From assembly GCF_005771525.1 (NCBI RefSeq), contig NZ_VAVZ01000009.1, positions 1 to 64,000 of the forward strand: a stretch of 64,000 nucleotides of DNA, read 5' to 3'. Numbering within the stretch: the first letter of the stretch is position 1; every line of letters starts with the position of its first letter. A program made the translations under genes and the position numbers. Source of the DNA: Nesterenkonia salmonea (lineage in GTDB: Bacteria > Actinomycetota > Actinomycetes > Actinomycetales > Micrococcaceae). The notes under the pieces were generated by a model, which saw nothing but the letters and a program-made list of their open reading frames with translations, was not told where the DNA came from and searched no databases. Positions 32,441 through 50,441 of this stretch are shown here, piece after piece.

Positions 32441-33415
32441 ATGCCTTCATCCTCGTCTGCGCTGCGCGCGCCCGCTCGTCGCACTGGCCTGTGGATTGCC
32501 GCGCTCGTGGTGACGGGGGTGCTGTTCCTGGTCGTGTACGAATACTTCGTCCGCACCGAGTCCGGCCAGTTCCTCGACAATGTGATGCGGATGACCGCGG
32601 ACCACTTTGATCACCCGCTGCCCTTCCTGAATCCGCAGAACCGGTGGATTGCGGTGTTCATCATGGCTCCCCCAGCTGTGCTCTTCGCTGTCATCGTGCT
32701 CGCAGGTCGGAAGTACCTGGCGGGCCTGATCGCGGTCGGGACTGTGCTCGCGGCCAATATCTCCACCCAGGTTCTGAAGTACGGGATGTTGGACCGGCCG
32801 GACTTGACGGACAACCCCACGTACTGGATCAACAATTCGTTGCCTAGCGGGCACACCACGATGGCCGCCTCGATTGTTGTTGCGGTGTTCCTGGTCGCCA
32901 GCCCCAAAGCTCGGCCAGCTATTGGCGTGCTGGGCGCGCTCTGGGGCGGAAGTTGGGGTGCCTACCTGTTCATTGAGGCCTGGCATCGACCCTCCGATAT
33001 GATCGCCGCCTATCTGGTAGCGGCGGCATGGGGCCTGGTGGGCGGCTGGCTGATCTTCCGTGCCGCACCGCGGGACAACACGGTGATCGCGGACGCTGAG
33101 CCTGAGGTGGCCCCGGCAGCCGGGGTGTGTTGGTTCCTGGGGATCGTTCTCACGGTAGGCGGGATGCTGTGCTTGGTCTTCGCCGGTGGGTGGACCGGAC
33201 TCGAGCGGTCCGTCGCAGAACCCACCCTGTGGGCCTGGGCTGCGGGCACCCTGCTGTCGTTCGGACCGGCTATGCTCACCGCCGCGGTGGGTATCAACTT
33301 CTTCGGCGCAGAGACTGGCCGACGGATGCGAGGGGCGGATGTGCCTGCTGCACATGGAACCCGTGTGGTGTACCCGATCCCTCCTGAGCTACGCCAGCTT
33401 TACGACCGCGTATGA
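32441..33415 (+). CDS. PAP2-family membrane phosphatase
   Basis: 324 aa with about seven hydrophobic segments. The phosphatase motifs are KYGMLDRPD (KxxxxxRP), SLPSGHTTMAAS (PSGH) and a third histidine in EAWHRPSDMIAAY. It probably dephosphorylates a lipid phosphate such as undecaprenyl or phosphatidic acid phosphate in the outer leaflet. The start at 32441 follows the end of the antisense menC region; the longer upstream frame lies antisense to menC and is rejected. Its stop overlaps the mutY start (ATGA). Confidence 0.88.
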   Translation: MPSSSSALRAPARRTGLWIAALVVTGVLFLVVYEYFVRTESGQFLDNVMRMTADHFDHPLPFLNPQNRWIAVFIMAPPAVLFAVIVLAGRKYLAGLIAVGTVLAANISTQVLKYGMLDRPDLTDNPTYWINNSLPSGHTTMAASIVVAVFLVASPKARPAIGVLGALWGGSWGAYLFIEAWHRPSDMIAAYLVAAAWGLVGGWLIFRAAPRDNTVIADAEPEVAPAAGVCWFLGIVLTVGGMLCLVFAGGWTGLERSVAEPTLWAWAAGTLLSFGPAMLTAAVGINFFGAETGRRMRGADVPAAHGTRVVYPIPPELRQLYDRV

Positions 33416-34341
33416 CGGCCCGTACCGCATTATCCCCTGAGCCAGTCCACCACACGCTGACCTCCTGGTACCACCGGGCAGCGCGTGATCTTCCTTGGCG
33501 CCGAGAGGACTGCTCTGCCTGGGGCGTGCTGGTTTCCGAAACCATGCTTCAGCAGACTCCGGTGGCCCGGGTGCTGCCGCGTTGGGAAGAGTGGATGCGC
33601 CGCTGGCCCGAGCCTGCTGATACGGCCCAGGCCCCACTGGCAGAGATTCTCACCGTGTGGGACCGGCTGGGCTACCCGCGGCGAGCGCTGCGCCTTCAGC
33701 AGGCCGCTGTGGCGATCGTGGAGCGCCACGGCGGGCAGGTGCCGCAGGATGTGGATCAGCTGCGCGCTCTGCCTGGTGTGGGCGAGTACACCGCCGCCGC
33801 TGTGGCCTGCTTTGCGTTTGACCAGCCTGAGGTGGTGGTCGACACCAATATTCGACGGGTGCACGCCCGGATCTTTTCCGGACAGGCGCTTCCTGGAAAG
33901 ACGTTCACCGCCGAGCAGCGCAGACTGGCCCGCGACGTGTTCCCTGACCCGCAGGCTGATGGCGGCCAGCTGGCCTGCACCTGGAACATCGCAGCCATGG
34001 AGCTCGGAGCGCTGATCTGCACGGCACGATCCCCCGCATGCTCTGCGTGCCCGGTCGCTAAGCTCTGCGCATGGCGGCTCGCCGGCTCACCTCCGCCCAC
34101 TGAGGAGCAGAAGACCCGGGGCCAGAGCTGGGTTGGGACGGACCGTCAGGTGCGCGGTGCCATTATGGCCGCGCTGCGCACCGGTGGGACCACTGCACGT
34201 GATGACCTGCTCTACGGTCTACCCTTGCCGTCCGCGGATCTCGATCAGCGGCAACGCTGCCTGGAATCGCTCCTGGCTGACGGACTCGCAGAACAGCGGG
34301 AGGCCCGGATAGCCCTGCCGGGAGCCCACCCAATGTGTTGA
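33412..34341 (+). CDS. mutY: A/G-specific adenine glycosylase MutY
   Basis: 309 aa. It has the active-site glutamate region VSETMLQQTPVARV, the helix-hairpin-helix ALPGVGEYTAAAVACFAF, the catalytic aspartate region VVDTNIRRVHAR, and the four-cysteine 4Fe-4S loop CTARSPACSACPVAKLC (C-x6-C-x2-C-x5-C). It removes adenine opposite 8-oxoguanine. The C-terminal part is shorter than in MutY with a full NUDIX-like domain. It overlaps the PAP2 gene by 4 nt and is followed by a long hairpin. Confidence 0.94.
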   Translation: MTARTALSPEPVHHTLTSWYHRAARDLPWRREDCSAWGVLVSETMLQQTPVARVLPRWEEWMRRWPEPADTAQAPLAEILTVWDRLGYPRRALRLQQAAVAIVERHGGQVPQDVDQLRALPGVGEYTAAAVACFAFDQPEVVVDTNIRRVHARIFSGQALPGKTFTAEQRRLARDVFPDPQADGGQLACTWNIAAMELGALICTARSPACSACPVAKLCAWRLAGSPPPTEEQKTRGQSWVGTDRQVRGAIMAALRTGGTTARDDLLYGLPLPSADLDQRQRCLESLLADGLAEQREARIALPGAHPMC

Positions 34342-34404
34342 GTGTCTCAGAATGTGGGGAACGATCCCTCTCAGGCCCGTACTTTCCCCGATTCCGAGAC
34401 ACTC
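34340..34404. terminator. Palindromic element copy A / terminator after mutY
   Basis: GAGTGTCTC (34340-34348) pairs with GAGACACTC (34396-34404), and the inner GGGGAA (34356-34361) with TTCCCC (34384-34389). TTT follows on the plus strand, so it can end mutY transcription. The 57-nt core GTCTC...GAGAC resembles in length and arm sequence the 56-nt palindrome at 49245-49300 inside a coding region, so this may be one copy of a dispersed palindromic repeat. Confidence 0.65.
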
Positions 34405-35605: not shown

Positions 35606-35621
35606 GAGCAAACTGCGGAGT

Positions 35622-36062: not shown

Positions 36063-36076
36063 CGGGGGGACCTTTC

Positions 36077-37198
36077 TTAGCGGGTTGTGGTTGCAGCTGA
36101 GGCGCGAGCAGGCGGGGCGCTGATGGGCATAGCTCTTCCGCGGAAGAACTTCCGCGCCCACAGGGCCACATAGACCAGACCGACCAGGACGGGGACTTCA
36201 ATGAGCGGCCCGACGACGCCGGCGAGAGCTTGACCGCTGGCGGCACCGAATGTCGCGATGGAGACTGCGATTGCCAGCTCGAAGTTGTTCCCTGCAGCGG
36301 TGAAACTCAAAGTGGTGGAGCGTTCGTAGCCCATGCGGAGGATCCACCCGATCACCATGGATGCGGCGAAGGTGACAACAAAGTAGATCAGCAGTGGCAC
36401 AGCGATCCGGACCACATCCAGCGGTTGACTGAGGACTTGGTCACCTTGAAGGGCGAAGAGCACCACAATGGTGAACAGCAGCCCGTAGAGCGCCCATGGC
36501 CCGATGACGGGCAGTACCTTGTTTTCATAGGCGGCCCGGCCCATCCGTGCCTCACCGATGGTACGAGTAAGGAATCCGGCCAGCAGCGGGATGCCGAGGA
36601 AGACGAGCACTGAGATGGTGATCGCCCATATGGAGAAGTCTGTGCTGGTGGTTTCCAGCCCCAACCAGCTTGGCAGGAGCTGCAGGTAGAACCATCCGAG
36701 GAGCCCGAACATGAACACCTGGAACACGGAGTTGATCGCTACCAGGACGGCGGCGGCTTCACGGTCTCCGCAGGCTAAGTCATTCCAGATGAGCACCATG
36801 GCGATGCATCGGGCCAGACCCACGATGATCAGACCCGTGCGGTACTCAGGAAGATCGGGGAGGAAGATCCAGGCCAGGGCGAACATAAAAGCAGGCGCGA
36901 GCAGCCAATTGATCACCAAGGATGTGATGATGAGGCGTTTGTCTGAGATCACTCGCCCTGTCTCGTTGTACCGGACCTTGGCGAGCACGGGATACATCAT
37001 CACCAGCAGGCCTATGGCGATCGGTACGGAGACGCCAGCGATCTTGACTGACTCCAGGGCCTCACCGAAGACAGGTAGCGCTGCGCCGAGAAGAAGCCCG
37101 AAACCCATCGCGCCGAGAATCCACAGCGGCAGGAATTTGTCCAACAGGGAAAGCTTTTGAATGACAGCGCCTGTATCTGGAGCCTCAGAAGTCGTCAC
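36077..37198 (-). CDS. acr3: Arsenite efflux transporter Acr3
   Basis: 373 aa, ten-helix BART-superfamily permease. It starts LSLLDKFLPLWILGAMGFG and contains GLARCIAMVLIWNDLACGD, with the conserved cysteine of Acr3, and EVPVLVGLVYVALW near the end. It pumps arsenite out of the cell. It is the first gene of the acr3-arsC unit, divergent from arsR, and the operators lie 33 nt and further upstream of its start. Confidence 0.94.
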   Translation of the reverse strand: MTTSEAPDTGAVIQKLSLLDKFLPLWILGAMGFGLLLGAALPVFGEALESVKIAGVSVPIAIGLLVMMYPVLAKVRYNETGRVISDKRLIITSLVINWLLAPAFMFALAWIFLPDLPEYRTGLIIVGLARCIAMVLIWNDLACGDREAAAVLVAINSVFQVFMFGLLGWFYLQLLPSWLGLETTSTDFSIWAITISVLVFLGIPLLAGFLTRTIGEARMGRAAYENKVLPVIGPWALYGLLFTIVVLFALQGDQVLSQPLDVVRIAVPLLIYFVVTFAASMVIGWILRMGYERSTTLSFTAAGNNFELAIAVSIATFGAASGQALAGVVGPLIEVPVLVGLVYVALWARKFFRGRAMPISAPPARASAATTTR

Positions 37199-37230
37199 GA
37201 GTGCCTTATCGTTGAGAGTGCATGAGCATC

Positions 37231-37246
37231 ATCGACAACTGTCGAT
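37231..37246. promoter_or_regulatory. Perfect ArsR operator-like palindrome
   Basis: ATCGACA AC TGTCGAT is a perfect 7+7 inverted repeat in the 117-bp gap between acr3 and arsR. It is the stronger of two similar sites, placed close to acr3. Confidence 0.7.
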
Positions 37247-37267
37247 ATAACGAGTATTCTTCACTAC

Positions 37268-37283
37268 ATCGATACATGTCAAT
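37268..37283. promoter_or_regulatory. Second, imperfect ArsR operator-like palindrome
   Basis: ATCGATA CA TGTCAAT matches the site at 37231-37246 at 14 of 16 positions outside the spacer-free arms comparison (one mismatch per arm; the spacer differs). The two centres are 37 bp apart. It lies 33 nt before the arsR start. Confidence 0.6.
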
Positions 37284-37315
37284 CTAGCAGTTGTGATGCA
37301 AGAAAGGGCCGCCTG

Positions 37316-37750
37316 ATGACATTAACCGCGACGCTCCCGGACTCTTCGGCGACTCCTGCCCCGGTCGCGGAAGAGTGCTGCGCCCCGCCCCCTGGCGCCG
37401 CTGAACTTCAGGCCGAAGCTGCGGCAGACCTTGCGATCAGGTTCAAGGCTCTCGGTGATGCCAACCGCCTGATGCTGCTGGCCACCATCGCTGGCGGAGA
37501 GTCTGCCGAGGCGTGCGTCTGCGATCTCACCGAGCCGTTGAACCTCGGGCAGCCCACCGTCTCCCACCACCTGAAGATTCTGGTTGATGCTGGGTTCCTC
37601 ACCAGAGAGAAACGCGGAACGTGGTCCTACTACTCAGTGGTCCCCGGCGCCCTGGGAGGGCTCTGCGGTGATCTGTGCTCTGAGTCCGCCCTGGGAGGCC
37701 TGATGAACCCAGCAGCCTCTGCTGAGTCTGCTCCTGAGCACAACGCCTGA
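37316..37750 (+). CDS. arsR: ArsR-family arsenic-responsive repressor
   Basis: 144 aa winged-helix repressor. The DNA-recognition region is LGQPTVSHHLKILVDAGFLTRE. Cysteine pairs are C21-C22 (EECCAPP) and C67/C69 (EACVCDL). The CC near the N terminus plus one or two cysteines in the helix resembles the Corynebacterium-type ArsR, which binds arsenite through an N-terminal CC and a more distant Cys. It is divergent from acr3-arsC over two palindromic sites. GAAAGGG lies upstream of the ATG. Its stop abuts that of radA on the other strand. Confidence 0.92.
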   Translation: MTLTATLPDSSATPAPVAEECCAPPPGAAELQAEAAADLAIRFKALGDANRLMLLATIAGGESAEACVCDLTEPLNLGQPTVSHHLKILVDAGFLTREKRGTWSYYSVVPGALGGLCGDLCSESALGGLMNPAASAESAPEHNA

Positions 37751-39157
37751 CTATTTCTCTCCCAGTACTAGGCTCAGCGCTTCCGCCAAGGATCCCACCT
37801 CACGGACCGTCATACCCTCAGGGATATTCTTTTTCTCTGCAGAGCCCTTGCTTTCTGGAGTTCGGGGAACGATGGCGTGCGTGAAGCCGAGCCGCTGAGC
37901 CTCCTGCAGGCGCCTACTGAGCCCCTGCACCGGCCTGACCTCTCCCGCAAGACCGACCTCCCCAAAGGCGAGGAACCTGTTGGGCAGCGGTTTCTCCAGG
38001 GTCGCAGAGGCCACCGCTAGGGCCACTGCCAAATCTGCCGCTGGTTCGGTGATCTTCACCCCGCCCACCGTGGCCACGTAGATTTCGGACTTCATCAATG
38101 TGGCGAGCTTGGCCCGCCGCTGCAGCACGGCCAAGAGCATCGAGACCCGAGGAGAATCCAGCCCTGAGACTGCTCTGCGCGGCTGTGCGGCCTGGGACTC
38201 TGCCACCAGAGCCTGCACCTCCGCAGTAAGCGGCCGGCGGCCTTCCAGCGTAATGGTGATGCAGGTTCCTGGTACCCGTTCGGTCATCGCGGAGACGAAG
38301 AGCCCACTGGGGTCTGCCAGAGACACCAAACCGTCCTCGGTGAGGTCAAAGCAGCCTACATCGTCAGTCGGTCCGTAGCGGTTCTTCCCAGCTCGAAGCA
38401 GGCGAAGCCGCGAGTGCCGCTCCCCTTCGAACTGGCACACGACATCCACAAGGTGTTCTAACATTCGCGGCCCGGCAATGTTTCCCTCTTTGGTGACGTG
38501 GCCGACCAGAATAGTCGTCATATTGCGCCGCTTGGCGGACTCGATCATGGCGGCTGTCACTTCACGGATTTGGGTGACCCCACCGGCTGCGCCGTCGACT
38601 TCGGCCGACGAGAGCGTCTGGACAGAGTCCATGATGGTCAGCTGGGGGCCGCCCTGTTCGGCGCCAGTCTCTTCAATTTGCCCCAACGCTTGACCCAGGT
38701 CAGCTTCGGCTGCCAGGTAGAGCCCGTCCGCCACAGCACCGATCCGCTCTGCGCGCTTCTTCACTTGGGCAGCCGATTCCTCACCTGTGAGATAGAGCAC
38801 CGGTTGGGAGGTGTGTTTGCGCGCCACATCCGCGGCTGCTTGCAGCAGAAGCGTGGACTTTCCCACGCCAGGCTCCCCCGCCATCAGAATGACTGCGCCT
38901 GGTACCAGCCCTCCGCCCAGCACTCGGTCCAATTCCCCGATCCCGGTCGGCCGGAACTCAGCCACGGAGGAGTCCACCTCCGCAATGGTCCTCGCCGGTG
39001 CGGTCAGCGAGCGCGAGGGGCCCGTGCGAGCCTTCGTCTGGCCCTTCTCCACGACGGTTCCCCAGGATTGGCACTCAGCGCACCGCCCGACCCACTTAAC
39101 GGTCTGCCAGCCGCACTCTGAGCACTCGAACCCCGCCGAGGACTTGTTCTTCGCCAT
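37751..39157 (-). CDS. radA: DNA repair protein RadA
   Basis: 468 aa. The N-terminal zinc finger is CSECGWQTVKWVGRCAEC, the Walker A motif GEPGVGKST, the RadA-specific motif KNRYG and a Lon-like C-terminal domain (AADLAVALAVASATLEKPLP). It promotes branch migration of recombination intermediates. The start at 39157 has TGGAG 4 nt upstream. It follows clpC on the same strand after a strong terminator, so it is probably transcribed separately. Confidence 0.95.
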   Translation of the reverse strand: MAKNKSSAGFECSECGWQTVKWVGRCAECQSWGTVVEKGQTKARTGPSRSLTAPARTIAEVDSSVAEFRPTGIGELDRVLGGGLVPGAVILMAGEPGVGKSTLLLQAAADVARKHTSQPVLYLTGEESAAQVKKRAERIGAVADGLYLAAEADLGQALGQIEETGAEQGGPQLTIMDSVQTLSSAEVDGAAGGVTQIREVTAAMIESAKRRNMTTILVGHVTKEGNIAGPRMLEHLVDVVCQFEGERHSRLRLLRAGKNRYGPTDDVGCFDLTEDGLVSLADPSGLFVSAMTERVPGTCITITLEGRRPLTAEVQALVAESQAAQPRRAVSGLDSPRVSMLLAVLQRRAKLATLMKSEIYVATVGGVKITEPAADLAVALAVASATLEKPLPNRFLAFGEVGLAGEVRPVQGLSRRLQEAQRLGFTHAIVPRTPESKGSAEKKNIPEGMTVREVGSLAEALSLVLGEK

Positions 39158-39226
39158 GCGCTCCACGTTATCCTTTCCCCCGGACTCCTCAGGCGCCGTG
39201 GGCGTAAGAAGTCCGGGCATGAGAAA

Positions 39227-39265
39227 GGCCGGGCCCGGTCACACTCTGTGTGGCCAGGCCCGGCC
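39227..39265 (-). terminator. clpC terminator
   Basis: GGCCGGGCC (39227-39235) pairs with GGCCCGGCC (39257-39265). After one mismatch the stem goes on for eight pairs (one G-U) to a TCT loop. On the minus strand it is followed by TTTCTC. It lies 18 nt after the clpC stop. Confidence 0.85.
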
Positions 39266-39283
39266 CGTTCGCTTTGGTGCTGC

Positions 39284-41803
39284 TCAGCTTTCGATAGCTG
39301 CCGGTTCTTCGGCTGCCTCCAGCTGGTGGTCAGTCGGCATACTCCAGTCGAAAGTCAGCTCACGGTCGGGGCCAGTGCCCTTCACCGCAATGCTGATCTC
39401 CGAACCGTGCGGTATCTCACCGTAGAGAATCCGCTCTGAGAGCTGGTCCTCAATCATGGACTGGATCGCCCGGCGCAATGGTCGCGCGCCCATGGCGGGA
39501 TCGTAGCCGCGGTCGGCCAGGAATTCGCGTGCTTCCTGGGTGATTTCCACGGTCATTGCCTGCTCTGCCAACCGCTTGCGCAGCCGGTCCATGAACAGGT
39601 CGACAATCTTGACGATCTCCTGCTGTTCCAGCTGCGGGAAGACGATGGTGTCGTCTACACGGTTGAGGAACTCGGGGCGGAAGTGCTGGCGCAGCTCCTG
39701 GCTGACCTTGCCCTTCATCCGCTCGTAGTTGGTTGCGGTGTCCGAGGTGGACGTGAAGCCTGTTGTCACACCCTTGGAGATCTCACCGGTCCCGAGGTTG
39801 GTGGTCATGATGATGACGGTGTTCTTGAAGTCGACTACCCGACCCTGGGAGTCGGTGAGCCGACCATCTTCAAGGATTTGCAGCAGTGAATTGAACAAAT
39901 CAGCGTGTGCTTTCTCGACTTCGTCGAAGAGCACAACCGAGAAAGGACGACGCCGCACCTTCTCCGTCAGCTGACCACCCTCCTCATAGCCCACATACCC
40001 TGGGGGCGCACCAAAGAGCCTCGAGACTGTGTGCTTCTCGCTGAACTCCGACATGTCCAGAGTGATCATGGCCTCTTCATCACCGAACAAGAACTCTGCC
40101 AGCGCTTTGGCCAGCTCTGTCTTGCCGACACCGGTAGGACCGGCGAAGATGAATGAGCCCGAGGGACGGTTGGGGTCCTTCAGACCTGCGCGGGTCCGGC
40201 GAATAGCGCGTGAGAGGGACTTCACAGCCTCATCCTGGCCGATGACCCGCTTGTGCAGCTCCTCTTCCATGCGCTTGAGCCGGTCGGATTCCGCCTCGGT
40301 GAGCTTGAAGACGGGTATACCGGTCGAGAAGGCGAGGACTTCGGCGATCAAATCACCGTCAACTTCAGCGATCTCATCCATTGACCGAGATTTCCAGGTT
40401 TCTTCTTTCTGGGCACGCTCTTCGACGAGCTTCTGCTCTTTGTCGCGGAACTGGGCAGCACCTTCGAAGTCCTGAGCGTCAATGGCGGCTTCCTTCTCCC
40501 GCTTGACCTCTTCGATTTTGCCGTCGAATTCCTTCAACTCCGGTGGAGGAGTCATTTTCTGAATTCTTAGACGCGCACCGGCCTCATCAATGAGGTCAAT
40601 TGCTTTGTCCGGAAGGAACCGGTCATTGATATACCGGTTCGCCAGATTGGCGGCCTGCTCCAGTGCTTCTTCTGTGATGGACACCTTGTGGTGTGCTTCG
40701 TAGCGATCACGCAGACCGCGCAGAATCTGCACTGTGGTTTCCACCGAGGGTTCATCGACTTGGATGGGTTGGAAACGGCGTTCCAGAGCAGCATCCTTCT
40801 CGATGTGCTTGCGGTACTCATCCAGCGTGGTCGCGCCGATGGTCTGCAGTTCTCCACGCGCCAGAAGCGGCTTGAGGATATTGGCAGCGTCAATTGCACC
40901 CTCTGCTGCACCGGCACCCACCAGAGTGTGGATCTCATCGATGAACAGGATGATGTCTCCGCGGGTACGGATCTCTTTGAGGACCTTCTTCAGGCGCTCT
41001 TCGAAGTCACCGCGGTAGCGAGAGCCTGCGACTAATGAACCGAGGTCCAATGTGTAGAGCTGTTTATCGCGCAGCAGTTCGGGGACATCGCCGTTGACTA
41101 TTGCCTGCGCCAGGCCCTCAACGACGGCTGTCTTGCCGACGCCGGGCTCACCAATGAGCACAGGATTGTTCTTGGTCCTGCGGGAAAGGACCTGCATGAC
41201 CCGTTCGCGTTCGTAGTCGCGGCCCACCACGGGGTCCAGCTGCGCTTCACGGGCAGCTGCAGTGAGGTTGCGACCGAACTGGTCAAGCACCACAGAGCCT
41301 GCAGGGGTTCCCGAAGCGCCGCCCTGTCCGACTCCAGCACCAGCTTTCTCCTGCTGATCGCCTCCGGAGTAGCCGGAGAGCAGCTGGATGACCTGCTGGC
41401 GGACCTTATTGAGGTCAGCGTTCATCTCCACCAGCACCTGAGCGGCGACACCCTCACCTTCCCGGATCAATCCGAGAAGAATGTGCTCTGTGCCGATGTA
41501 GTTGTGGCCCAGCTGAAGAGCTTCACGCAGTGAGAGCTCGAGCACTTTTTTGGCGCGCGGAGTGAAGGGAATGTGCCCGGACGGGGCATTCTGGCCCGGT
41601 CCGATCTTCTCCTGCACCTTCTCCCGAACACCCTGAAGGTTGATGTCCAGGGACTCCAGCGCCTTAGCAGCGACGCCTTCACCTTCGTGGATCAACCCAA
41701 GCAGAATGTGCTCAGTGCCGATGTAGTTGTGGTTAAGCATGCGGGCCTCTTCTTGGGCCAGCACGACGACGCGACGTGCGCGGTCAGTAAATCTCTCAAA
41801 CAT
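39284..41803 (-). CDS. clpC: ATP-dependent Clp protease ATP-binding subunit ClpC
   Basis: 839 aa. Two Clp-N repeats ([20 protein letters not shown] and a second with [10 protein letters not shown]), NBD1 with [13 protein letters not shown], a UVR-type middle segment ([20 protein letters not shown]) and NBD2 with [20 protein letters not shown] follow each other. ClpC feeds substrates to ClpP. I give the ATG at 41803 ([10 protein letters not shown]), the family start. However, GGGAG is about 12 nt from this ATG and only 6 nt from an in-frame TTG at 41809, so the true start may be TTG two codons earlier. Confidence 0.95.
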
Positions 41804-41896
41804 AGCCAACTGACGCTCCCTACAGCATTGTCTTCCGAGAGTCCAAGGCTACGGCCATTTGCCGCCGACTCACCTACCTGTTCGCCACAGGGAAAA

Positions 41897-41944
41897 GACT
41901 GACCCCCGGCGGGAGCTCGTACTAGCCCGCGCCGGGGGTCAGTC
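41897..41944 (-). terminator. lsr2 terminator
   Basis: GACTGACCCCCGGCG (41897-41911) and CGCCGGGGGTCAGTC (41930-41944) are perfect 15-bp arms with an 18-nt loop. On the minus strand TTTTCC follows. It lies 13 nt after the lsr2 stop and would end the lysS-small protein-lsr2 or lsr2 transcript. Confidence 0.85.
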
Positions 41945-41957
41945 CTACCCGAAAATG

Positions 41958-42260
41958 TCAGCGCTTCTTGGCGTTGCGATACGCCTCGACGATGTCCCGG
42001 TGAAGGCGACCCCGTTTAGCGACGGTGTATCCATGGGACACCGCCCATTCTCGAATTTTCTTTGCCTCATTCTGAGGTGACGGGGGAGGAACTGCCTCAG
42101 CCTTGCGAACGTACTTCTTGAGAGTGTCGCGGAGCGCTTTGGCGTTCTCTTCCGACAGGTCAATCGAGTAAAACCTGCTGTCAAGACCGAAGTGAACAGT
42201 CTCCTTAGCCGGTGATCCATCTAGATCATCAACGAGGATTTCTTGTACTTTTTTCGCCAT
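41958..42260 (-). CDS. lsr2: Lsr2 nucleoid-associated protein
   Basis: 100 aa. The N-terminal oligomerisation domain MAKKVQEILVDDLDGSPAKETVHFGLD (in part) is followed by a Pro-rich linker and the DNA-binding tail IREWAVSHGYTVAKRGRLHRDIV, in which RGR is the minor-groove AT-hook-like motif. Lsr2 silences AT-rich, often foreign, DNA. An unusually strong hairpin terminator follows. Confidence 0.93.
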   Translation of the reverse strand: MAKKVQEILVDDLDGSPAKETVHFGLDSRFYSIDLSEENAKALRDTLKKYVRKAEAVPPPSPQNEAKKIREWAVSHGYTVAKRGRLHRDIVEAYRNAKKR

Positions 42261-42445
42261 GAGCGATGCACCTCACTGCAGAGTATCGACAGCCCGCGAA
42301 AACTGTGCTTGTTGTCTGCACACTGAGGGCTGATAAATAATTATAAGTGGCCAGGGACCAATTCTCTGACGACAGCTCTATTCTCGCAGGGAAAAACAAA
42401 GACCGTCAACTCAGTAAGACCCCACAAGAATTCATCTTGGTTTGT
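42261..42445. promoter_or_regulatory. lsr2 promoter region
   Basis: This 185-bp, relatively AT-rich gap lies upstream of lsr2 on the minus strand and downstream of the small membrane protein gene. An AATAATTATAA run near 42336 could be autoregulated by Lsr2, which prefers such DNA. No other feature seen. Confidence 0.35.
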
Positions 42446-42622
42446 TCACTGATGGGCTTGTGTCTCGCGGCTCGTAGTGTCATTCATCTCCTGCCGCACC
42501 GCAGCCTCAGTGGCGCGCTCATTGCGGTCAGCGCGGAAGATCGCCCGCATCGCCAACCAGAAGACCAGACCCACGCCTATCGATGGCGCAAGCACTTCAA
42601 AATACGTCCAGAAATTATCCAT
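42446..42622 (-). CDS. 58-aa single-span membrane protein between lysS and lsr2
   Basis: An ATG frame of 58 codons begins 6 nt after the lysS stop. The protein starts MDNFWTYFEVLAPSIGVGL, continues with VFWLAMRAIFRADRNERAT and ends in a short polar tail with a QEMNDTTS segment. This is one membrane helix followed by the basic IFRADRNER motif, a pattern I recall in small proteins found between lysS and lsr2 in related actinobacteria. Function unknown. No good Shine-Dalgarno, so translation is probably coupled to lysS. Confidence 0.75.
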   Translation of the reverse strand: MDNFWTYFEVLAPSIGVGLVFWLAMRAIFRADRNERATEAAVRQEMNDTTSRETQAHQ

Positions 42623-42628
42623 ATTGGC

Positions 42629-44143
42629 TCAACTTTCCGGCTTGAGGAGAGGAAACAGTATGGTTTCACGAATACCTGATCCAGTGAACAGCATCACAAG
42701 TCGATCGATTCCTAAACCGATTCCACCCATCGGTGGCGCCCCATATTCCAGCGCTCGGAGAAAGTCTTCGTCCACTTGCATTGCCTCTTCATCCCCGCCA
42801 GCTGCCTGATGAGCCTGTGCCACCAAACGCTCTCTTTGAATGACGGGGTCAATAAGTTCAGAGAAGGCTGTGCCCGTCTCCATTCCGGCAATGATGAGGT
42901 CCCATGCCTCAATCACACCAGGCTTTTCTCGATGTGGCCGGGCAAGCGGCTGGGCGGCTGGCGGATAGTCGCACACAAACGTGGGCTGAAGCAGTGTCGG
43001 CTCGACGATCTCGCCGAATAGTTCAAGGACCAGCTTCTGCGCACCCCATGCCGGGTCGACTCTCACCTGATGCCTCTCGGCGACAGCCAGCAGTGTGCCG
43101 GCATCAGTATCAGGGGTGATCTCTTGGCCTACAGCTTCCGACAGCCCGGGGTAGACCGAGAGCCATGCCCATTCGCCGCTGAGATCAACAACACCTCGCT
43201 CAGTCTCAATCTTCAGGCCCTTGCCTGCGGCCTGTGCAGCATTGCGGATCATCTCCTGCATACGGTCTGCCATCACATACATGTCACCCCAGGCTTCGTA
43301 GGATTCCAGCATGGTGAACTCTGGGGAGTGCGTTGAGTCGACGCCTTCATTGCGGAAGACGCGGCCGATCTCGAAGACGCGGTCAATGCCTCCCACTACG
43401 GCCCGCTTCAGGTAGAGCTCCGTCGCGATACGCAGCGTCATGGGCTGGTCAAACGCATTGAGATGAGTGCGGAACGGCCTAGCCTGCGCTCCTCCGTGAA
43501 TGAGCTGCAGAATGGGAGTTTCAACTTCCACGTAGTCCCGCGAGTGCAAGGTGTCACGGATGGCGCGAACCATAGCCGCACGTGTGTAGACCATTTGGCG
43601 CGCCTCATCACGCACGATCAGGTCTGCATACCGCTGACGAACTCGGGTTTCCTCGTTGAGATCGGCGTGCAGCACTGGAAGTGGCCGAAGCGCCTTCGAG
43701 GCGATGACAAACGACCGTGCCATGACGCTGAGCTCACCGCGACGCGAGGTGATCACCTCGCCGGTGACCTGGACCTGGTCGCCGAGGTCGACAGCAGACT
43801 TCCACTGCGCCAAACTCTCTTCACCGACCTCGGCCAGCGAAATCATGGCCTGCAGCCGAGTGCCGCTGCCCTGTGGCCCGCCCTCCTGCAGCGTGGCGAA
43901 ACAGAGCTTGCCGGTGTTCCGAATAAACATCACACGTCCGGTGACCGAAACGGTCTCACCAGTAGAGGCACCTGGCTCCAGATCGGGGAAGCGGCTGCGC
44001 ACGTCCGCCAGCGAAGCGCTGCGCTCGACTGTGACCGGGTAGGCCGGCACACCCTGCTCCAGCAGGCGTGTGCGCTTGTCCATGCGCACAGCGCGCTGGT
44101 CGGTGGTGTCTATGTCGGTCGTGGTCGAAGTCTGCTCAGTCAC
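42629..44143 (-). CDS. lysS: Lysyl-tRNA synthetase, class II
   Basis: 504 aa. An OB-fold anticodon-binding domain (VSVTGRVMFIRNTGKLCFATLQ, in part) is followed by the class II core: motif 2 FRNEGVDSTHSPEFTMLE and motif 3 GGIGLGIDRLVMLFTGS. GTG start with no clear Shine-Dalgarno, 36 nt downstream of the M13 peptidase gene. It charges tRNA-Lys. Confidence 0.96.
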   Translation of the reverse strand: MTEQTSTTTDIDTTDQRAVRMDKRTRLLEQGVPAYPVTVERSASLADVRSRFPDLEPGASTGETVSVTGRVMFIRNTGKLCFATLQEGGPQGSGTRLQAMISLAEVGEESLAQWKSAVDLGDQVQVTGEVITSRRGELSVMARSFVIASKALRPLPVLHADLNEETRVRQRYADLIVRDEARQMVYTRAAMVRAIRDTLHSRDYVEVETPILQLIHGGAQARPFRTHLNAFDQPMTLRIATELYLKRAVVGGIDRVFEIGRVFRNEGVDSTHSPEFTMLESYEAWGDMYVMADRMQEMIRNAAQAAGKGLKIETERGVVDLSGEWAWLSVYPGLSEAVGQEITPDTDAGTLLAVAERHQVRVDPAWGAQKLVLELFGEIVEPTLLQPTFVCDYPPAAQPLARPHREKPGVIEAWDLIIAGMETGTAFSELIDPVIQRERLVAQAHQAAGGDEEAMQVDEDFLRALEYGAPPMGGIGLGIDRLVMLFTGSGIRETILFPLLKPES

Positions 44144-44179
44144 CCCGCCAGTTTACGTCTTCTACTCCAGGTAGAAGAA

Positions 44180-46201
44180 CTACCAGATTGTCACCCGCTG
44201 ATCAGGTGAAAGGTACATGCCATCACCCTCAACGGTCCCGAAGGCGCGGTGAAAGGCATCCACGTTCTTGACCGGCTGGGTCGCGCGGAACTCAGCAGGA
44301 GAGTGCGGGTCAACGCTGAGCAGCGTCAGGGCACGCTCAGGCCGGGTGACGTTGCGCCACCCCTGTGCCCAGGAGAAGAAGAACCGCTGGTCACCGGTGA
44401 GGTCTCCGACGGCGTCGTCGTCTTTCTCCTCAGGGCCACTCACCTCGGTGATTTTCACGCCTTGGTTTCGGGCAGCCAGCCACAACTTATACGCCTTGTG
44501 GGCGATGCCTATCCCCCCGAGGTCACCGATGTTCTCCCCCAATGTGAGTTCGCCATTGACAGTGTGTTCATCATCAAGTGCTGAAGGACTCAGCGCATTG
44601 AACTGCTCGACCAGTCGGGCTGTGCGCTCCTCGAAGGCGGTGCGGTCCTCAGCTGTCCACCAGTCGGTGAGAGAACCATCCGCGCCGTAGCGGGATCCCT
44701 GATCATCGAAACCGTGACCGATCTCATGACCAATGACCGCACCGATGGCACCAAAGTTCTGCGCCATGTCCCGGTCAACGGAGAAGAACGGCAACTGAAG
44801 GATCGCTGCCGGGAAGCAGATGACGTTTTCCAGCGGGTGGTAGTAGGCATTGACTGTCTGCGGCGTCATATGCCATTCGTCGGGGTCTGGACCCTCGTCA
44901 ATTTTGGCGACGTCGCGGTCCCATTCCTTCTCCGCGGCGCGGGAAACGTTGCCGACGACGTCATCAACAGCGACCTCGACATCTGAGTAATCTGTCCATT
45001 TGGAGGGGAATCCGATCTTCGGGATGAAGGTGTCCAGCTTCTCCAACGCCTTCTGCCGTGTCTCTTCACCCATCCACTCCAGGGTGCTGATGGAGCGACG
45101 GTAAGCCTCAATCAGGGCAGCAATCAGCTCATCCATGGCCTGACGAGCCTGCTGGGGATAGTGCCGTGCAACATAGATCTGTGCCACGTCCTCACCCAGG
45201 TGACCATTGGTCAGCGCCACGCCTCGCTTCCACCGCTCCTTCAACTGAGGGGTGCCGTTGAGGGTCTTAGCGTAGAAGTCGAAATGCTCGTTGACCACCT
45301 CAGAATGCAGCAGTGGAGCCGCCCACCGCAGCAGCTGAGCGCGGAGCCAGTGCTTCCACGTCTCGACTGGGTATTCAGTCAGTGCGGACTGGAAAGCGGG
45401 CAGCACATCCGGTTGGCCGACCACGATCTCCGCCGACTGAGCATCAGAGAGCCCCCAGCCCTCAAACGCCTCACTGATCAGGGGTATCAACTGCTCAACT
45501 TCAGCACGCGACTTCAGGTTGTAGCGCTTCTGCGCATCCCGAGTGGTCACCCGGTCCCAGTGATGGGAAGCCAACTTGGTCTCCAGGTTCAGGACCTCAG
45601 ACGCCGCCTGCGCTGAGTCTGCGACTCCGGCGAGCGCGAGGAAGGTTTCCAGATGAGCCTTGTACTTGTGACGAATCTCGGTATAGGTATCTTCCCGGTA
45701 GTAGGCCTCATCAGGCAGCCCCAGGCCGCCCTGCATCATGTGCAGAAGCTCCCGCTCAGGGTTACCTGCATCGCGGGTCACACCGACCATCACGAGGCCA
45801 TCAAGTCCCTGACGCTGCCATGTGGCGGCTAGGCGCAGCAGCTCACCGGGGGTTGAGGCGGAGCCAATCTCATCCAGGCGCTCCTGGATGGGGCCCAGTT
45901 TCAGCTCTTCAGCCCGCTCAGCGTCCATGAACGCGCGGTAGAAGGTGCCGATGCGCTGCTGGATGTCTCCGAAATCGGGGTCTACATCAACCACTCTTTC
46001 GGTAGCTGTCTGCGCAGCCTCGTCGAGGATGGCGCGAACATCTGCCTCAGCCTTGTCCCGGAGTTCGAGGAAGGAGCCGTAGGCATCCAAGTCATCAGGG
46101 ATCTCAGCTGTTTTCAGCCACTCTCCGTTGACGTGGTGATTGAGATCATCCTGCGCTCGGACGGAGGAATCGATGTAGGGGAAATCGGTCTCTGTGCTCA
46201 T
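44180..46201 (-). CDS. M13-family zinc metallopeptidase (PepO/neprilysin-like)
   Basis: 673 aa, full length for bacterial M13 enzymes. The zinc motif is VIGHEIGHGFDDQGSRY (HEIGH), the third ligand is in GENIGDLGG, and NAYYHP upstream is the substrate-backbone motif. No signal peptide or membrane segment is visible, so it is probably cytoplasmic like PepO. It cleaves small peptides. Confidence 0.94.
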   Translation of the reverse strand: MSTETDFPYIDSSVRAQDDLNHHVNGEWLKTAEIPDDLDAYGSFLELRDKAEADVRAILDEAAQTATERVVDVDPDFGDIQQRIGTFYRAFMDAERAEELKLGPIQERLDEIGSASTPGELLRLAATWQRQGLDGLVMVGVTRDAGNPERELLHMMQGGLGLPDEAYYREDTYTEIRHKYKAHLETFLALAGVADSAQAASEVLNLETKLASHHWDRVTTRDAQKRYNLKSRAEVEQLIPLISEAFEGWGLSDAQSAEIVVGQPDVLPAFQSALTEYPVETWKHWLRAQLLRWAAPLLHSEVVNEHFDFYAKTLNGTPQLKERWKRGVALTNGHLGEDVAQIYVARHYPQQARQAMDELIAALIEAYRRSISTLEWMGEETRQKALEKLDTFIPKIGFPSKWTDYSDVEVAVDDVVGNVSRAAEKEWDRDVAKIDEGPDPDEWHMTPQTVNAYYHPLENVICFPAAILQLPFFSVDRDMAQNFGAIGAVIGHEIGHGFDDQGSRYGADGSLTDWWTAEDRTAFEERTARLVEQFNALSPSALDDEHTVNGELTLGENIGDLGGIGIAHKAYKLWLAARNQGVKITEVSGPEEKDDDAVGDLTGDQRFFFSWAQGWRNVTRPERALTLLSVDPHSPAEFRATQPVKNVDAFHRAFGTVEGDGMYLSPDQRVTIW

Positions 46202-46267
46202 GGATCCACCCTACGTCAGCGGCTGAGGTGCTGAAATATTGCTTCAGTGCGCCCCTCTTCGTGGGGT

Positions 46268-47173
46268 TCACTTCGACGGCGAGAGCCCTGGCCGCAGGTC
46301 CATGGTGTCGATGAGCCGAACCGGACCCACGCGTGCGGCGATGAGAGCCAGTGCGGGCTTGTCCAGGGCGCCGTCTTCGATCTCCTGAAGGGTCGTGGGG
46401 TCGACGACCACCAGGTAGTCCAGATCGAGACCATCCGCGGCCCGAAGGTGCCCGCGCAGCTCTTCAAGGTCCAGCTCCTGCCCCGATTCGGCCCGTTCCA
46501 CCAAGGCGACAAGGGCACGGGGGATGCTGAGGGCGGCGTCGTAATCCTGGTCATTCAGCCGCATATTGCGGCTGGAGAGCGCCAACCCGTTCTCATCGCG
46601 GACGATCGGCAGCGCCCTGATGCGGACTGGGAGGTTCAGGTCAGTGACAAGCCGGCGCATAATGGCGAGCTGTTCGGCATCCTTCTGCCCGAACCACGCT
46701 TCACAGACAGCGGGAGCTGGTGGGTGAAGAATAGTGAAGAGCTTTGTCACCACGGTCGCGACTCCGTCGAAGTGACCCGGCCTGGACGCCCCCTCCCACC
46801 GTTGGCCGAGCTCCCCAGTGCTCACTCGAACCAGGGGGGCTTCTGGGTGGCCCGGATACATCTGCTCCAGGTCGGGCGCGAACACAAAATCAACACCATG
46901 CCGAGTGAGCAGCTCAAGGTCCTTCTCAAACTGACGGGGGTAGTGCTGGTAGTCCTGAGGGTCATCGAACTGCAGCGGGTTGACGAACACACTGGCGATC
47001 ACAATGTCTGCGCTGGTGCGTGCCGCCTGCAGCAGTGCACCATGGCCGGAGTGCAAGGCCCCCATAGTGGGGACAATGCCGACAACCGGCTGCCGCCGCG
47101 CAGATTCTTGGGTGGCGCGTGTCACTGCGGCACGGATAGCTGTCACAGTGTGGAAGACCTGGGTCACGGACAT
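46268..47173 (-). CDS. panC: Pantoate-beta-alanine ligase
   Basis: 301 aa. It has the HIGH-like PTMGALHSGHGALLQAA, VFVNPLQF, FGQKDAEQLAIMRRLV and LSSRNMRL, which surround the ATP and pantoate sites. It makes pantothenate. It is 34 nt downstream of the DUF2520 gene; the two belong to a conserved actinobacterial group. Confidence 0.95.
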   Translation of the reverse strand: MSVTQVFHTVTAIRAAVTRATQESARRQPVVGIVPTMGALHSGHGALLQAARTSADIVIASVFVNPLQFDDPQDYQHYPRQFEKDLELLTRHGVDFVFAPDLEQMYPGHPEAPLVRVSTGELGQRWEGASRPGHFDGVATVVTKLFTILHPPAPAVCEAWFGQKDAEQLAIMRRLVTDLNLPVRIRALPIVRDENGLALSSRNMRLNDQDYDAALSIPRALVALVERAESGQELDLEELRGHLRAADGLDLDYLVVVDPTTLQEIEDGALDKPALALIAARVGPVRLIDTMDLRPGLSPSK

Positions 47174-47207
47174 ATCCTAGTGCTGCTGCTAGCTGGAGCC
47201 TTCGACG

Positions 47208-48128
47208 CTATTGCGCCAACAGGTCAAGCAGCTCAGCCGCCTGGGCCTCGGAGATGGTGCCCAGAGCCAGGGCCCGTTGAGCGGCAGACTGGGCCATGGC
47301 GATGTATGCGCCGCGCGCGTCGGAGGGCAGCCCGGAGGCAGCCAATTCCCTGAGGTGCTGCCGGACCGTTCCCGTGTCCCCGCGGGCCACTGGGCCAGTC
47401 AGCGCCCCGGTCCCCGAGGCCAGTGCGTTATCCAGCGAGGCCTGCATCAGCGGGCCCAAGACACGGGACGGATCATCGATCCCAATGCGTTCGAGCACTT
47501 CGGATGACTGAGCAGTGAGGATATTGAGGTGGTTTGAGGCATGCGCCAGAGCCGCGTGATAGGCGCCTCGGTGCTGTTCTTCCACCACAACGGGCTCGCC
47601 GCCCATTTCCACCGCGAGCGCCTGAGCCACGGGGAGGACATCTTGATCAGCGGTCACAGCGAAAGCGCTGGCGTTGAGCCTCTGCAGGTCCAGACTCATG
47701 CCGCTGAACGTCATTGCTGGATGGATGGCCAGGCCGATCGCCCCCGCCCGCTGCGCTGGTGCCAGCACACCGGTGCCGAAGCGGCCAGAGGTGTGGATCA
47801 CCAGCTGGCCGGGCTGGAAGTGACCGGCCTCTGCTATTCCGGTGACCAACTCACCGAGAACGTCGTCGGGTACAGCCAGGAGCACAAGTTCCGCACGGCG
47901 CACGATCTCCGGAATTTCCAGAACCGGCACACCTGGCAGGAGGTTCTCTGCCCGGTCTTGGGAGTCGACTGAGACAGCGTGCACGCCGACTACCTGGTGG
48001 CCTGCGTTGCGCAGTGCCGCGCCCAGCACGGACCCGACTTTTCCGGCGGAGATGACGCCGACGCCCAGCCGGCCTTCCCTGGCCCAGGGAGGCATGTCAG
48101 CGGCATACGGATCGATTGGTGTGGTCAT
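47208..48128 (-). CDS. Rossmann-like/DUF2520 protein next to panC
   Basis: 306 aa. The N-terminal half is a dinucleotide-binding domain (LGVGVISAGKVGSVLGAAL, ELVLLAVPDDVL, VIHTSGRFG). The helical DUF2520 half includes HPAMTFSG and HRGAYHAALAHASNHLNIL. The overall plan is that of ketopantoate reductase and related 6-phosphogluconate dehydrogenase-like enzymes, and its position directly before panC suggests a role in pantothenate synthesis, perhaps ketopantoate reduction. That function is inferred from context. Confidence 0.85.
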   Translation of the reverse strand: MTTPIDPYAADMPPWAREGRLGVGVISAGKVGSVLGAALRNAGHQVVGVHAVSVDSQDRAENLLPGVPVLEIPEIVRRAELVLLAVPDDVLGELVTGIAEAGHFQPGQLVIHTSGRFGTGVLAPAQRAGAIGLAIHPAMTFSGMSLDLQRLNASAFAVTADQDVLPVAQALAVEMGGEPVVVEEQHRGAYHAALAHASNHLNILTAQSSEVLERIGIDDPSRVLGPLMQASLDNALASGTGALTGPVARGDTGTVRQHLRELAASGLPSDARGAYIAMAQSAAQRALALGTISEAQAAELLDLLAQ

Positions 48129-48216
48129 CCTCGCTGGTCCTCACGTTGTTTGGGTGCACACAGGCAGGCGGGGCGCAGTTCGGGGCCGAGGACCGTGTGT
48201 ATGCGCCCAAGCAAGT

Positions 48217-49926
48217 CTAGGGGGCGGAAGTGCTGGTGGCGGCGTCGTCGAGCTTCTCTACCGCTTCTGCCACGTTCTTTTCGAACTCCGCCAATTCCTC
48301 CGGCATCATCCAGTGGTTCCGGTCGGTGAGGCGACGAGCTACGGCGGCGTACGCGGTTTCCTGTTCGAACAGGTAGCGAATCTGCTCAAGGTCCTGGTTC
48401 TTGGCCAAAGCGGTGATGGGACCTGACGGGATATGAATGTGGAGCGTGGCGACCTTCCGCCACCGGGCCAAGGGCCCCTGCTGCAGGGCGGTGGATTGGA
48501 TGCGCTCATGCGGGACCATAGTCAGCCGCCGGGTCATCCGCCCATCGCGGAGAAGGATGGCGCTGGGGGTGGTGAAGAAGCCGCGACGCTTGCGCACCAG
48601 CGGGTCGAACGCCCTAGCGCGGGCGGGAACCTCAGTGAAACCGAGCTGTGTGCCGGTGCCGCGGAGCCCCTCCATGAACACCTCCTCGGGGTGCTCCACC
48701 TTGAGGTCGGGGAACATCTCCGCGGTCAGGCTCATCACGTCATCTGCGGTGCCCACCGGCAGCAGTGTGGTGCGTGAGTCGAGTCCGTAGCCGGCAACAG
48801 TGACGATGACCTTGTACCAGCCGAAGGGCCGCCACATCAGACCCTGTTGGATTTGGATCGCCTGCACCCGCCCGGGAGGAACAGTCTGCGTGTTGGTAGT
48901 GGTCAATCCGTATTTCAGCCGCAGGCCCGCTTGAGTCATGGTGGCGGTGAAGTTCCACCCTCCGGTCAGCTGACCCCAGAATCCGACCACTGCACCAATG
49001 ATGATGGGAATCCCCACAGCGGGCTGGAGGCCGACTTCCATCACCAGTGAGGCGTCTTCCTCGCCGGTCAACCACACAATGGCTGTGGTGACGCCGAGGT
49101 AGGTGACGTAGATGCCTGCCACGATCACGACGATAACGCCGCCAGGCCCGCAGACCATGGAGGCGATCAGGCGCCAGATCGGCACGCGGGCAATCTGCCG
49201 GTCAGGCACTGGTGTGTGAGCGGGTGACGTCTGCTGCTCAGAATGTCTCGGGATGTTGGAAATGCCGGAGAATTCGCCGTTATTTCCAACATCCCGAGAC
49301 GCAGATTCCTCGGTGGCGGCACCCTCGGGGGTCTCCTCAGCAACGGATGCCGGCGCGCGCCCTGCGGCGCGGTCCATAATCTCGGTGCGCAGCTCCTCCG
49401 CCTCACGCTTGCGCAGGAACGCCAAGGTGGCGGCGGTGCCGTCGCCTTCGGCAACTTCGAACCGCAGCTCTGCGAGCTTGGCGATCCGCGCCAGAAGAGG
49501 TTGACGCAGGTCAACGGCCTGCACGCGGTCGATCCGAGCCTGGCGGTGCTGCCGGACAAATATCCCGGACTTCACCATCACATGCTCTTCCGTGATCTTG
49601 TACCGGGTGAACCACCAGGAAAGAGTGAACCCGATGAAGATCATCAACGCCAACGCCAGGAAGGCTCCACCGCCGATCAGGTAGGGCAGTGGATTCGACT
49701 GGACGTTGTCGATCAGCTCTCCGGTCCGCCACGCGGTCCAGAGGCTGGACCACATTTCCCAGTTGTAGGCGAAGAACGCCGCGGGGATCGCCACTATCGT
49801 GACCCATCCGCGCACCAGAGGGCTCAGCGGGTGGACCTTGGTCCAGGTGTCGTCGAACCAGACTTCTTTGCCGGACTCTTCTTCCTTCTGCTCTGGCTGC
49901 TCTACTTGGCCGGACTCGTTCTCCAT
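48217..49926 (-). CDS. Tandem PH-domain membrane protein (YdbT-like)
   Basis: 569 aa. After an acidic head come two hydrophobic helices (GWVTIVAIPAAFFAY, YLIGGGAFLALALMIFIGF), a bacterial PH (YdbT/DUF304) domain with WWFTRYKITEEHVMVKSGIF and QHRQARIDRVQAVDL, a long polar linker, two further helices and a second PH domain (LRLKYGLTTTNTQTVPPGRVQ). The linker segment RDVGNNGEFSGISNIPR is encoded by a 56-bp near-perfect palindrome, see separate entry. The start at 49926 overlaps the stop of the upstream PH gene. Probably an envelope protein; function unknown. Confidence 0.85.
   Translation of the reverse strand: MENESGQVEQPEQKEEESGKEVWFDDTWTKVHPLSPLVRGWVTIVAIPAAFFAYNWEMWSSLWTAWRTGELIDNVQSNPLPYLIGGGAFLALALMIFIGFTLSWWFTRYKITEEHVMVKSGIFVRQHRQARIDRVQAVDLRQPLLARIAKLAELRFEVAEGDGTAATLAFLRKREAEELRTEIMDRAAGRAPASVAEETPEGAATEESASRDVGNNGEFSGISNIPRHSEQQTSPAHTPVPDRQIARVPIWRLIASMVCGPGGVIVVIVAGIYVTYLGVTTAIVWLTGEEDASLVMEVGLQPAVGIPIIIGAVVGFWGQLTGGWNFTATMTQAGLRLKYGLTTTNTQTVPPGRVQAIQIQQGLMWRPFGWYKVIVTVAGYGLDSRTTLLPVGTADDVMSLTAEMFPDLKVEHPEEVFMEGLRGTGTQLGFTEVPARARAFDPLVRKRRGFFTTPSAILLRDGRMTRRLTMVPHERIQSTALQQGPLARWRKVATLHIHIPSGPITALAKNQDLEQIRYLFEQETAYAAVARRLTDRNHWMMPEELAEFEKNVAEAVEKLDDAATSTSAP
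49245..49300. repeat. Palindromic element copy B inside PH-protein gene
   Basis: GTCTCGGGATGTTGGAAAT (49245-49263) and ATTTCCAACATCCCGAGAC (49282-49300) are perfect 19-bp arms with an 18-nt loop. Length and arm sequence resemble the 57-nt core at 34344-34400 after mutY. Here it lies in frame in the linker between two PH domains and encodes SRDVGNNGEFSGISNIPRH, so it looks like a mobile palindrome tolerated by the protein. Confidence 0.75.
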
Positions 49927-50441
49927 CAGAGACCAGCCAGACGTGCTTGTCCGCGGGCGGCGAGCTCGTCGCGCAACCTGGCCCCCTCTGACCGCACGGC
50001 TCCCGGGATCGTGGCATCGGTTGCCGCCGAGGCGGTCTTCAACTGCACAGTGCACAGGCCGAGCTTGCGCATGATGGGCCCAGCTTCAATGTCCACGTAC
50101 TGCAGCCGTCCGTAGGGAACAGCCACCACGCGCTGCCAGAGCAGCCCACGGCGGATGAGCAGGTCGTCGGCACGTTCGTGGTAGCCGATGGCGCGAACTC
50201 TGCGCGGGACAAGAATCAAGTCCACCGCGGTCCAGAACACCAGACCTCCGATCACCAGAACCTGCAGCCAGAGCGGGAACTCTGCCCAGATCCCCGTCCA
50301 GCTCAGCACCAGCGGGGTGCCTACGATCGCGAAAGTGATCAGCCACCCGGTGATTCCGGTGATGTACTTGACGGTGATGTACTTCTCATCCACACGTGTC
50401 CATTCAACCCCTGTGGGGTCGATGGCCTCAGAGTGCAGCAT
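49926..50441 (-). CDS. PH-domain membrane protein (YdbS-like)
   Basis: 171 aa. Two membrane helices (GITGWLITFAIVGTPLVLSW, LWLQVLVIGGLVFWTAVDLI) precede a bacterial PH domain (VRAIGYHERADDLLIRRGLL, VAVPYGRLQYVDIEAGPI). It is the shorter partner of the usual YdbS/YdbT pair. I start at 50441 (MLHSEAI) because GGAG lies 4 nt upstream; an in-frame ATG 5 codons earlier is possible. It overlaps the DUF3180 gene at its start and the tandem PH gene at its end. Confidence 0.85.
   Translation of the reverse strand: MLHSEAIDPTGVEWTRVDEKYITVKYITGITGWLITFAIVGTPLVLSWTGIWAEFPLWLQVLVIGGLVFWTAVDLILVPRRVRAIGYHERADDLLIRRGLLWQRVVAVPYGRLQYVDIEAGPIMRKLGLCTVQLKTASAATDATIPGAVRSEGARLRDELAARGQARLAGL

Follow-up and report, generated by a model that had tools for sequence, protein, structure and literature searches.

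Palindromes flanking AbiEi-DUF559 genes in Nesterenkonia point to a putative protein-and-site system with lineage-specific words

The long persistence of small palindrome families in compact genomes still needs explaining, and work on it has, in our view, centred on one protein class, the RAYTs. Many copies of another kind, the Rickettsia palindromic elements (RPEs), are inserted in frame in genes. In the passages of the sources drawn on here, REP sequences with TnpA-REP/RAYT are dispersed palindromes with a usually single-copy gene beside them, protein and palindrome co-evolving (PMC8266576), and other REP families with GTAG or CGTC tags, as well as REPINs, are likewise small dispersed palindromes, some of them genic (PMC3733652; PMC3116915). 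The same passages describe AbiEi of Streptococcus as binding two 23-bp inverted repeats 3 bp apart and Rv2827c as binding repeat pairs 13 bp apart, both with autoregulation (PMC7319586), and VsrA of Caulobacter, a DUF559/Vsr-like nuclease, as a predicted endonuclease of mismatch repair with a functional link to a cytosine methyltransferase (PMC12907096).

The palindromes described here resemble a REPtron, as far as that account goes, in that a gene is flanked by a dispersed palindrome, whose arm sequence we call a word: word A in Nesterenkonia haasae and N. sphaerica, word C in genome G017, and a word beginning TGGGGCG in G004 and G018. They differ in the partner, which is an AbiEi-like protein with a DUF559 domain and not a HuH (Y1) transposase, in the sites, which are about 57-75 nt long with two sequence-conserved half-sites, and in copy number, about ten rather than hundreds. 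No HuH family occurs among the Pfam and PADLOC matches of the AbiEi-DUF559 proteins, and no common GTAG tag was seen by eye in 41 copies with 25-nt flanks; CGTC lies inside the conserved GCGTCTC edge of both arms in most word-A copies and is thus part of the arms, not a one-end tag. With HuH protein and GTAG tag absent, the system falls outside the REPtron family and is alike in arrangement only; from the other REP families and REPINs, in so far as their accounts were considered, it is set apart by the lack of a visible tag motif and by another partner gene. RPEs, as we understand their definition, differ in that only one of the ten word-A copies here is genic (by inspection). AbiEi antitoxins of type IV toxin-antitoxin systems share a related N-terminal part and an operator made up of a pair of long inverted repeats spanning 49 or 59 bp, by the portion of the source used (PMC7319586), but here a nuclease-like domain is fused, and sites lie on both sides of the gene and genome-wide. 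VsrA has the DUF559 domain in common but a methyltransferase-linked repair role (PMC12907096), and palindromes are unmentioned in the passages of its description considered. No link of DUF559 or AbiEi-nuclease proteins to palindromes was found in searches of open-licence PMC papers, and the nuclease-gene-linked palindromes with their lineage-specific words point, on sequence comparison, to an unrecorded protein-and-site system.

The window, which is the whole stretch of 64,000 nucleotides analysed (N. salmonea, hereafter the window genome), contains the following features:

49245..49300, minus strand: 56-nt palindromic site of word A with an 18-nt spacer, inside the PH-domain gene
49239..49305, minus strand: the same site plus short outer edges, input to covariance model R1
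48217..49926, minus strand: gene for a 569-aa bPH_2 (bacterial PH) domain protein; the site falls in its hypervariable linker (from Pfam and reading frame)
34344..34400, plus strand: 57-nt palindromic site of word A, diverged copy, 2 bp past the mutY stop
33412..34341, plus strand: mutY-like gene preceding the second site, so named by inspection and in the first-pass annotation

The arms of site 49245-49300 (GTCTCGGGATGTTGGAAAT / 18 nt / ATTTCCAACATCCCGAGAC) are perfect over 19 bp around the 18-nt loop, exactly as the first-pass annotation had it. This is the longest perfect arm in the window with loops up to 40 nt, and in three first-order Markov shuffles of the window the longest arms were 10, 14 and 11. 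The annotation also placed the copy in frame in the linker, and indeed it corresponds to residues 209-228 of the 569-aa protein, encodes ASRDVGNNGEFSGISNIPRH, and is common to four species (the window genome, N. haasae, N. natronophila and N. sphaerica); the palindrome was not seen in the other orthologues read. The host is a membrane-protein gene, the start codon of which was picked by inspection, and a Pfam run on frame 48217-50055 matched bPH_2 in three stretches. On the linker-length check proposed there, the element adds no length, linkers being 57, 62, 66 and 72 aa with the palindrome versus 74 and 67 aa in two orthologues without it. Because the linker is unalignable elsewhere and no longer in the carriers, an exact insertion cannot be drawn. 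Codon-level selection on this copy was considered and rejected, the excess of same codons in the arms being non-significant against N. haasae (8/10 vs 307/477, p 0.51), N. natronophila (7/10 vs 239/442, p 0.36) and N. sphaerica (7/9 vs 226/418, p 0.19).

The second palindrome starts 2 bp after the mutY stop (34339-34341) and is, as had been proposed, a relative of the first, though a diverged one with less perfect arms (18/22 positions complementary); its counterparts are h4a in N. haasae and s1b in N. sphaerica. When the window genome (3.28 Mb, 140 contigs) was searched by sequence, by a nine-copy covariance model and by pattern, 10 word-A sites and two sites of a related word B (GTCTCAGAACTGCRGGAACT; C86:115505 and 116613) were found. 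The dispersed palindrome family, noted earlier from two members, is thereby confirmed, a genome-wide covariance search having been set beforehand as the check for further copies; the refuting outcome named there, a lack of such copies, did not arise. In each word-A element a 17-bp spacer separates two half-sites of 20 bp in inverted orientation (consensus GTCTCGGGATGTGGGAAACT), and the whole runs over 57 nt from GTCTC to GAGAC, the sole exception being the 56-nt PH copy.

Among 30 genomes of the genus, the word-A model (E up to 0.1) matched in five, namely the window genome, N. haasae (G007) and N. sphaerica (G027) with 13 sites each, G014 with three weak sites and G020 with one weak site. In 245 genomes of the family, the 57-nt pattern with up to two mismatches occurred in seven, exact matches being found only in the window genome, N. 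haasae and N. sphaerica; a reversed-pattern control gave one match each in three genomes. All ten word-A sites of the window genome have N. haasae counterparts matched by both 3-kb flanks (at locus a46 the two flanks pair with two different N. haasae sites), and all ten have counterparts in N. sphaerica, seven matched by both flanks and three by one flank only. The extra site of N. haasae is related to the one next to it but inverted, at a place where the window genome carries just one, and N. sphaerica has an additional site, s86. Recent movement of word A was looked for and not seen, the ten sites being common to the three species, and no occupied and empty versions of a site that would give its exact ends were found.

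Some differences around individual sites may be mentioned. In N. haasae (L104, C40:141201-143548), three ordinary genes (171, 358 and 191 aa) in a stretch of 2.2 kb are bracketed by two related word-A sites in inverted orientation; the whole lies between guaB and a sulfurtransferase gene, where the window genome carries one site only. Three word-A sites (L083, L085 and L086, compared with L098, L092 and L101) mark places, perhaps by chance, at which the window genome and N. sphaerica are not collinear, and the site stays with one flank. The spacer of the site upstream of dnaK (L081 compared with L107) fits N. haasae better when flipped relative to its flanks (12 vs 8 of 17); the site may have been inverted.

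Conservation within the site is concentrated in the arms. In the orientation given by the flanks, arms of matching sites are identical at 12-20 of 20 positions, mostly 15 or more, and spacers agree at 5-12 of 16 or 17 positions with N. sphaerica (mostly 5-10) and, when the window genome is compared with N. haasae, at 8-16 of 16-17. Compensatory stem changes, a feature of structured RNA, are absent in the 32 word-A sites, neither the arms (outer pairs 527/640, shuffled mean 520.5, p 0.14) nor the spacers (inner pairs 71/192, mean 76.5, p 0.86) showing covariation. With word B included (37 sites), outer pairs rise to 616/740, above all 5000 shuffles (mean 567), since a change of word alters both arms together; this set held 36 of the 41 copies, four of 56 nt and one of 60 nt being left out, plus one more site. 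Conserved arms, freer spacers and the lack of covariation suggest two inverted half-sites at a fixed spacing, recognized in double-stranded DNA by one protein, so that the word-A element resembles a pair of half-sites for a DNA-binding protein rather than an RNA hairpin.

A candidate for such a protein is encoded between phoU and a phosphoglycerate-mutase-like gene (gpmA; names by inspection), where a 1-kb gene of N. haasae and N. sphaerica carries a word-A site on either side. The arrangement recurs in the window genome, with word B on both ends; G017 has two word-C sites (GTAAAGAAACTGCCGGAACT) around an AbiEi-DUF559 gene after phoU, and in G014 the locus holds one word-B site immediately bordered by the two flanking genes. 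A single comparison of this locus covers the genomes with phoU on the plus strand (G000, G007, G006, G027, G025, G020, G017, G002, G001, G005, G028, G029, G015, G024, G016 and G018). The upstream site, a palindrome of AbiEi-operator size, lies about 70-130 bp ahead of the start codon, and the downstream one 10-40 bp past the stop. Residues 15-156 of the protein match a PADLOC AbiEi model (best E 1.8e-8), one such model being matched by 4/5 members and Pfam AbiEi_4 by 1/5 (E 0.11). In the C-terminal part, 5/5 members match DUF559 (best 8.3e-5), with the DUF559 and other nuclease matches of the first member lying below Pfam curated cut-offs. E215, D247 and QYxGxHH are invariant in the five members and may have catalytic roles in an acidic PD-(D/E)XK motif. 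NCBIfam gave one weak match to the protein, and no solved structural relative was found at E up to 1.

We identified 86 AbiEi-DUF559 matches in 27/30 genomes of the genus, 70 of which entered a flank test, the other 16 being mostly fragments. On one side or both, 59/70 genes had an inverted repeat of 15/18 or better no more than 280 bp away, compared with 46/206 control genes and 31/300 random window pairs; on both sides it was 31/70, compared with 3/206 and 0/300. The same word (at least 13/16) stood on both sides of 35/70 genes, 2/206 controls and 0/300 random pairs, the remaining 35/70 failing this test; controls were genes of 230-400 aa called by a crude ORF script in stretches of G004, G022 and G018. 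The words of the 35 same-word genes form 27 clusters at 13/14 and 18 at 12/14. In other genera of the same family (one genome each), homologues occur in 21/30, and 17/30 loci share a word on both sides versus 5/300 random window pairs; this test took 30 of 62 matches, and its random windows came partly from loci holding real sites.

At a threshold of at least 12/14, words agree in 3/3 pairs above 80% protein identity, 8/10 at 60-80%, 8/27 at 50-60%, 7/276 at 40-50% and 5/1062 below. Over 53 genes as a whole, protein and word similarity showed no significant correlation (rho 0.05, p 0.085), with rho -0.08 below 45% protein identity. Many flanking palindromes of different words open with a similar outer edge, e.g. 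CATCGAG or CGAGTGG, possibly a common motif of a wider family. The three AbiEi-DUF559 matches of the window genome comprise one with word B, one with its own word and one without a clear palindrome, and none of them has word-A flanks. A second homologue (L228, G000:C64:21754-22611) has its own palindromes on both sides (TGGCCGATTATGCCG...).

Outside chromosomes, 6/72,556 plasmid records held a match, and three Arthrobacter loci were compared: L326 and L327 have similar palindromes on both sides, and L325 has a 15-of-18 repeat on one side only. At L327 (NZ_CP012477.1), the gene lies among phosphate genes (a DUF47 protein, a phosphate transporter and pstB), as near phoU in Nesterenkonia. In viral contigs, 249 stretches fit a pattern and none was confirmed.

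At phoU-gpmA, the divergence of the window genome from N. haasae starts and stops at the palindromes. In 100-bp bins, the window genome and N. haasae are 84-94% identical before the first palindrome (76% in the last bin), 47-76% between the palindromes and 94% in the bin after the second. The cassette proteins of these two genomes, with word B on both ends in one and word A on both ends in the other, are 62% identical, versus 72% between N. haasae and the more distant N. sphaerica, both with word A. Part of this loss of identity may come from fast evolution, since between N. haasae and N. sphaerica, too, the cassette has diverged somewhat more than its flanks. Nevertheless, the word change on both ends would be explained best by a joint replacement of the gene and both palindromes, a step that leaves the window genome with no visible partner gene for word A. 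Word-A arms are no more decayed there than in N. haasae (p 0.92), and because N. haasae kept the word-A cassette, this leaves upkeep of the sites by the word-A cassette protein unsupported. The replacement may be recent, or something else may hold the sites.

Other words are dispersed as well. Word C occurs at 12 places in G017 and at three weaker ones in G014, with single marginal matches (E 0.04-0.08) in three more of the 30 genomes, and the word beginning TGGGGCG occurs at several places each in G018, G004 and G022, with single stronger matches in G009, G019 and G026. The stretches fetched contained six paired sites in G004, six in G022 and three in G018, and by eye the six of G004 match the six of G022 by spacer sequence. 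Among 13 sites of G004 and G018 compared, the locus in common with the word-A/B family is phoU-gpmA; two further sites are some 1.2 kb away from a gene adjoining a word-B site of G014.

Taken together, we consider it probable, with some reserve, that the word-A sites are cognate sites of the AbiEi-DUF559 (Vsr-like, PD-(D/E)XK) protein, two of them flanking its gene and about ten being scattered, in a scheme that would comprise binding, autoregulation, cutting and spread. The AbiEi-like part would probably bind both half-sites, as AbiEi antitoxins bind paired inverted repeats, and the 57-bp sites fit that geometry, the AbiEi and Rv2827c operators being 49 and 59 bp in all by the portion of the source considered. 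From the upstream site, the protein may repress its own gene; the nuclease part may nick or cut at the sites, and repair after cutting could then spread or exchange sites together with the gene cassette at low frequency. The PH-gene copy would go back to an old insertion into a linker that tolerated it, with the reading frame kept.

On a wider view, judged from genome comparison alone, AbiEi-DUF559 genes in Nesterenkonia and related genera may represent a second, unrelated instance of a REP/RAYT-like way of life, with a chromosomal nuclease gene between two flanking palindromes, a small stable population of sites, protein and word changing together, and cassettes replaced by recombination at the palindromes; we put this forward tentatively, at somewhat short of even chances. 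If true, this protein-unrelated arrangement would allow general features of palindrome persistence to be tested, would indicate what a common and little-studied type of protein is likely to act on, and would be a source of candidate DNA-binding nucleases with long, readable recognition words.

A rival explanation, which we regard as unlikely, is that the sites are ordinary operators of an AbiEi-like regulator with a small regulon, the nuclease domain having no part in spread. Places and arms conserved in three species would suit it, as would the binding of paired inverted repeats by AbiEi proteins in the part of PMC7319586 used, and one site lies upstream of dnaK and one between the divergent guaB and sulfurtransferase genes (names by inspection). 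However, the neighbours of word A seem to have no common function (genes by inspection), one of the ten copies is inside a gene (by inspection), and some stand close behind stop codons. Also against an operator are the second palindrome after the stop in many cassettes and the meeting of the G004/G018 sites with the word-A/B family at phoU-gpmA and, for two others, about 1.2 kb from the gene next to the G014 site.

It is improbable that the sites are remnants of a miniature inverted-repeat transposon with an unseen transposase, the nuclease-like gene lying between copies by chance. Their fixed length, inverted ends, in-frame genic copy and inverted pair around 2.2 kb in N. haasae recall such elements, but in its own genome the word occurs only in palindromes, plus one weak 19-nt match, no transposase was noticed among the neighbouring genes inspected, and flanking pairs of many different words recur on AbiEi-DUF559 genes.

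The first-pass annotation had suggested that the palindrome might double as a terminator, for which we find no support, and an RNA hairpin or bidirectional transcription terminator is very improbable. The long stem, and the several copies close behind stop codons or between convergent genes, would agree with this reading; nevertheless, both the hairpin and the terminator versions are disfavoured by the lack of covariation within word A and by placement, with one copy within a gene, one between divergent genes and at least one between genes on the same strand that may form an operon (crude ORF calls). There is no Rfam match within 34000-50000 of the window and, by eye, no strong T run after either window copy; terminator scans gave no match at either but, confined to loops of 3-8 nt against the 18 nt of the site, carry no weight. 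Finally, an RPE-type element colonising genes is hardly credible. The in-frame linker copy kept in four species agrees with the gene-colonising reading of the first-pass annotation, but only one of ten copies is genic and most are intergenic, the sites are inherited stably, and the family is tied to a nuclease-like gene, so that the Rickettsia analogy is a loose one.

Two further palindromes deserve mention in their own right. In another genus, G060 (C5:638617) and G085 (C8:597212) carry one 57-nt palindrome each, GTCCCGC...GCGGGAC, with GGAAAC and TTTCC at the same offsets. At 41897-41944, the window itself holds a strong GC-rich 48-nt palindrome (GACTGACCCCCGGCGGG...), unrelated in sequence to word A and perhaps a terminator.
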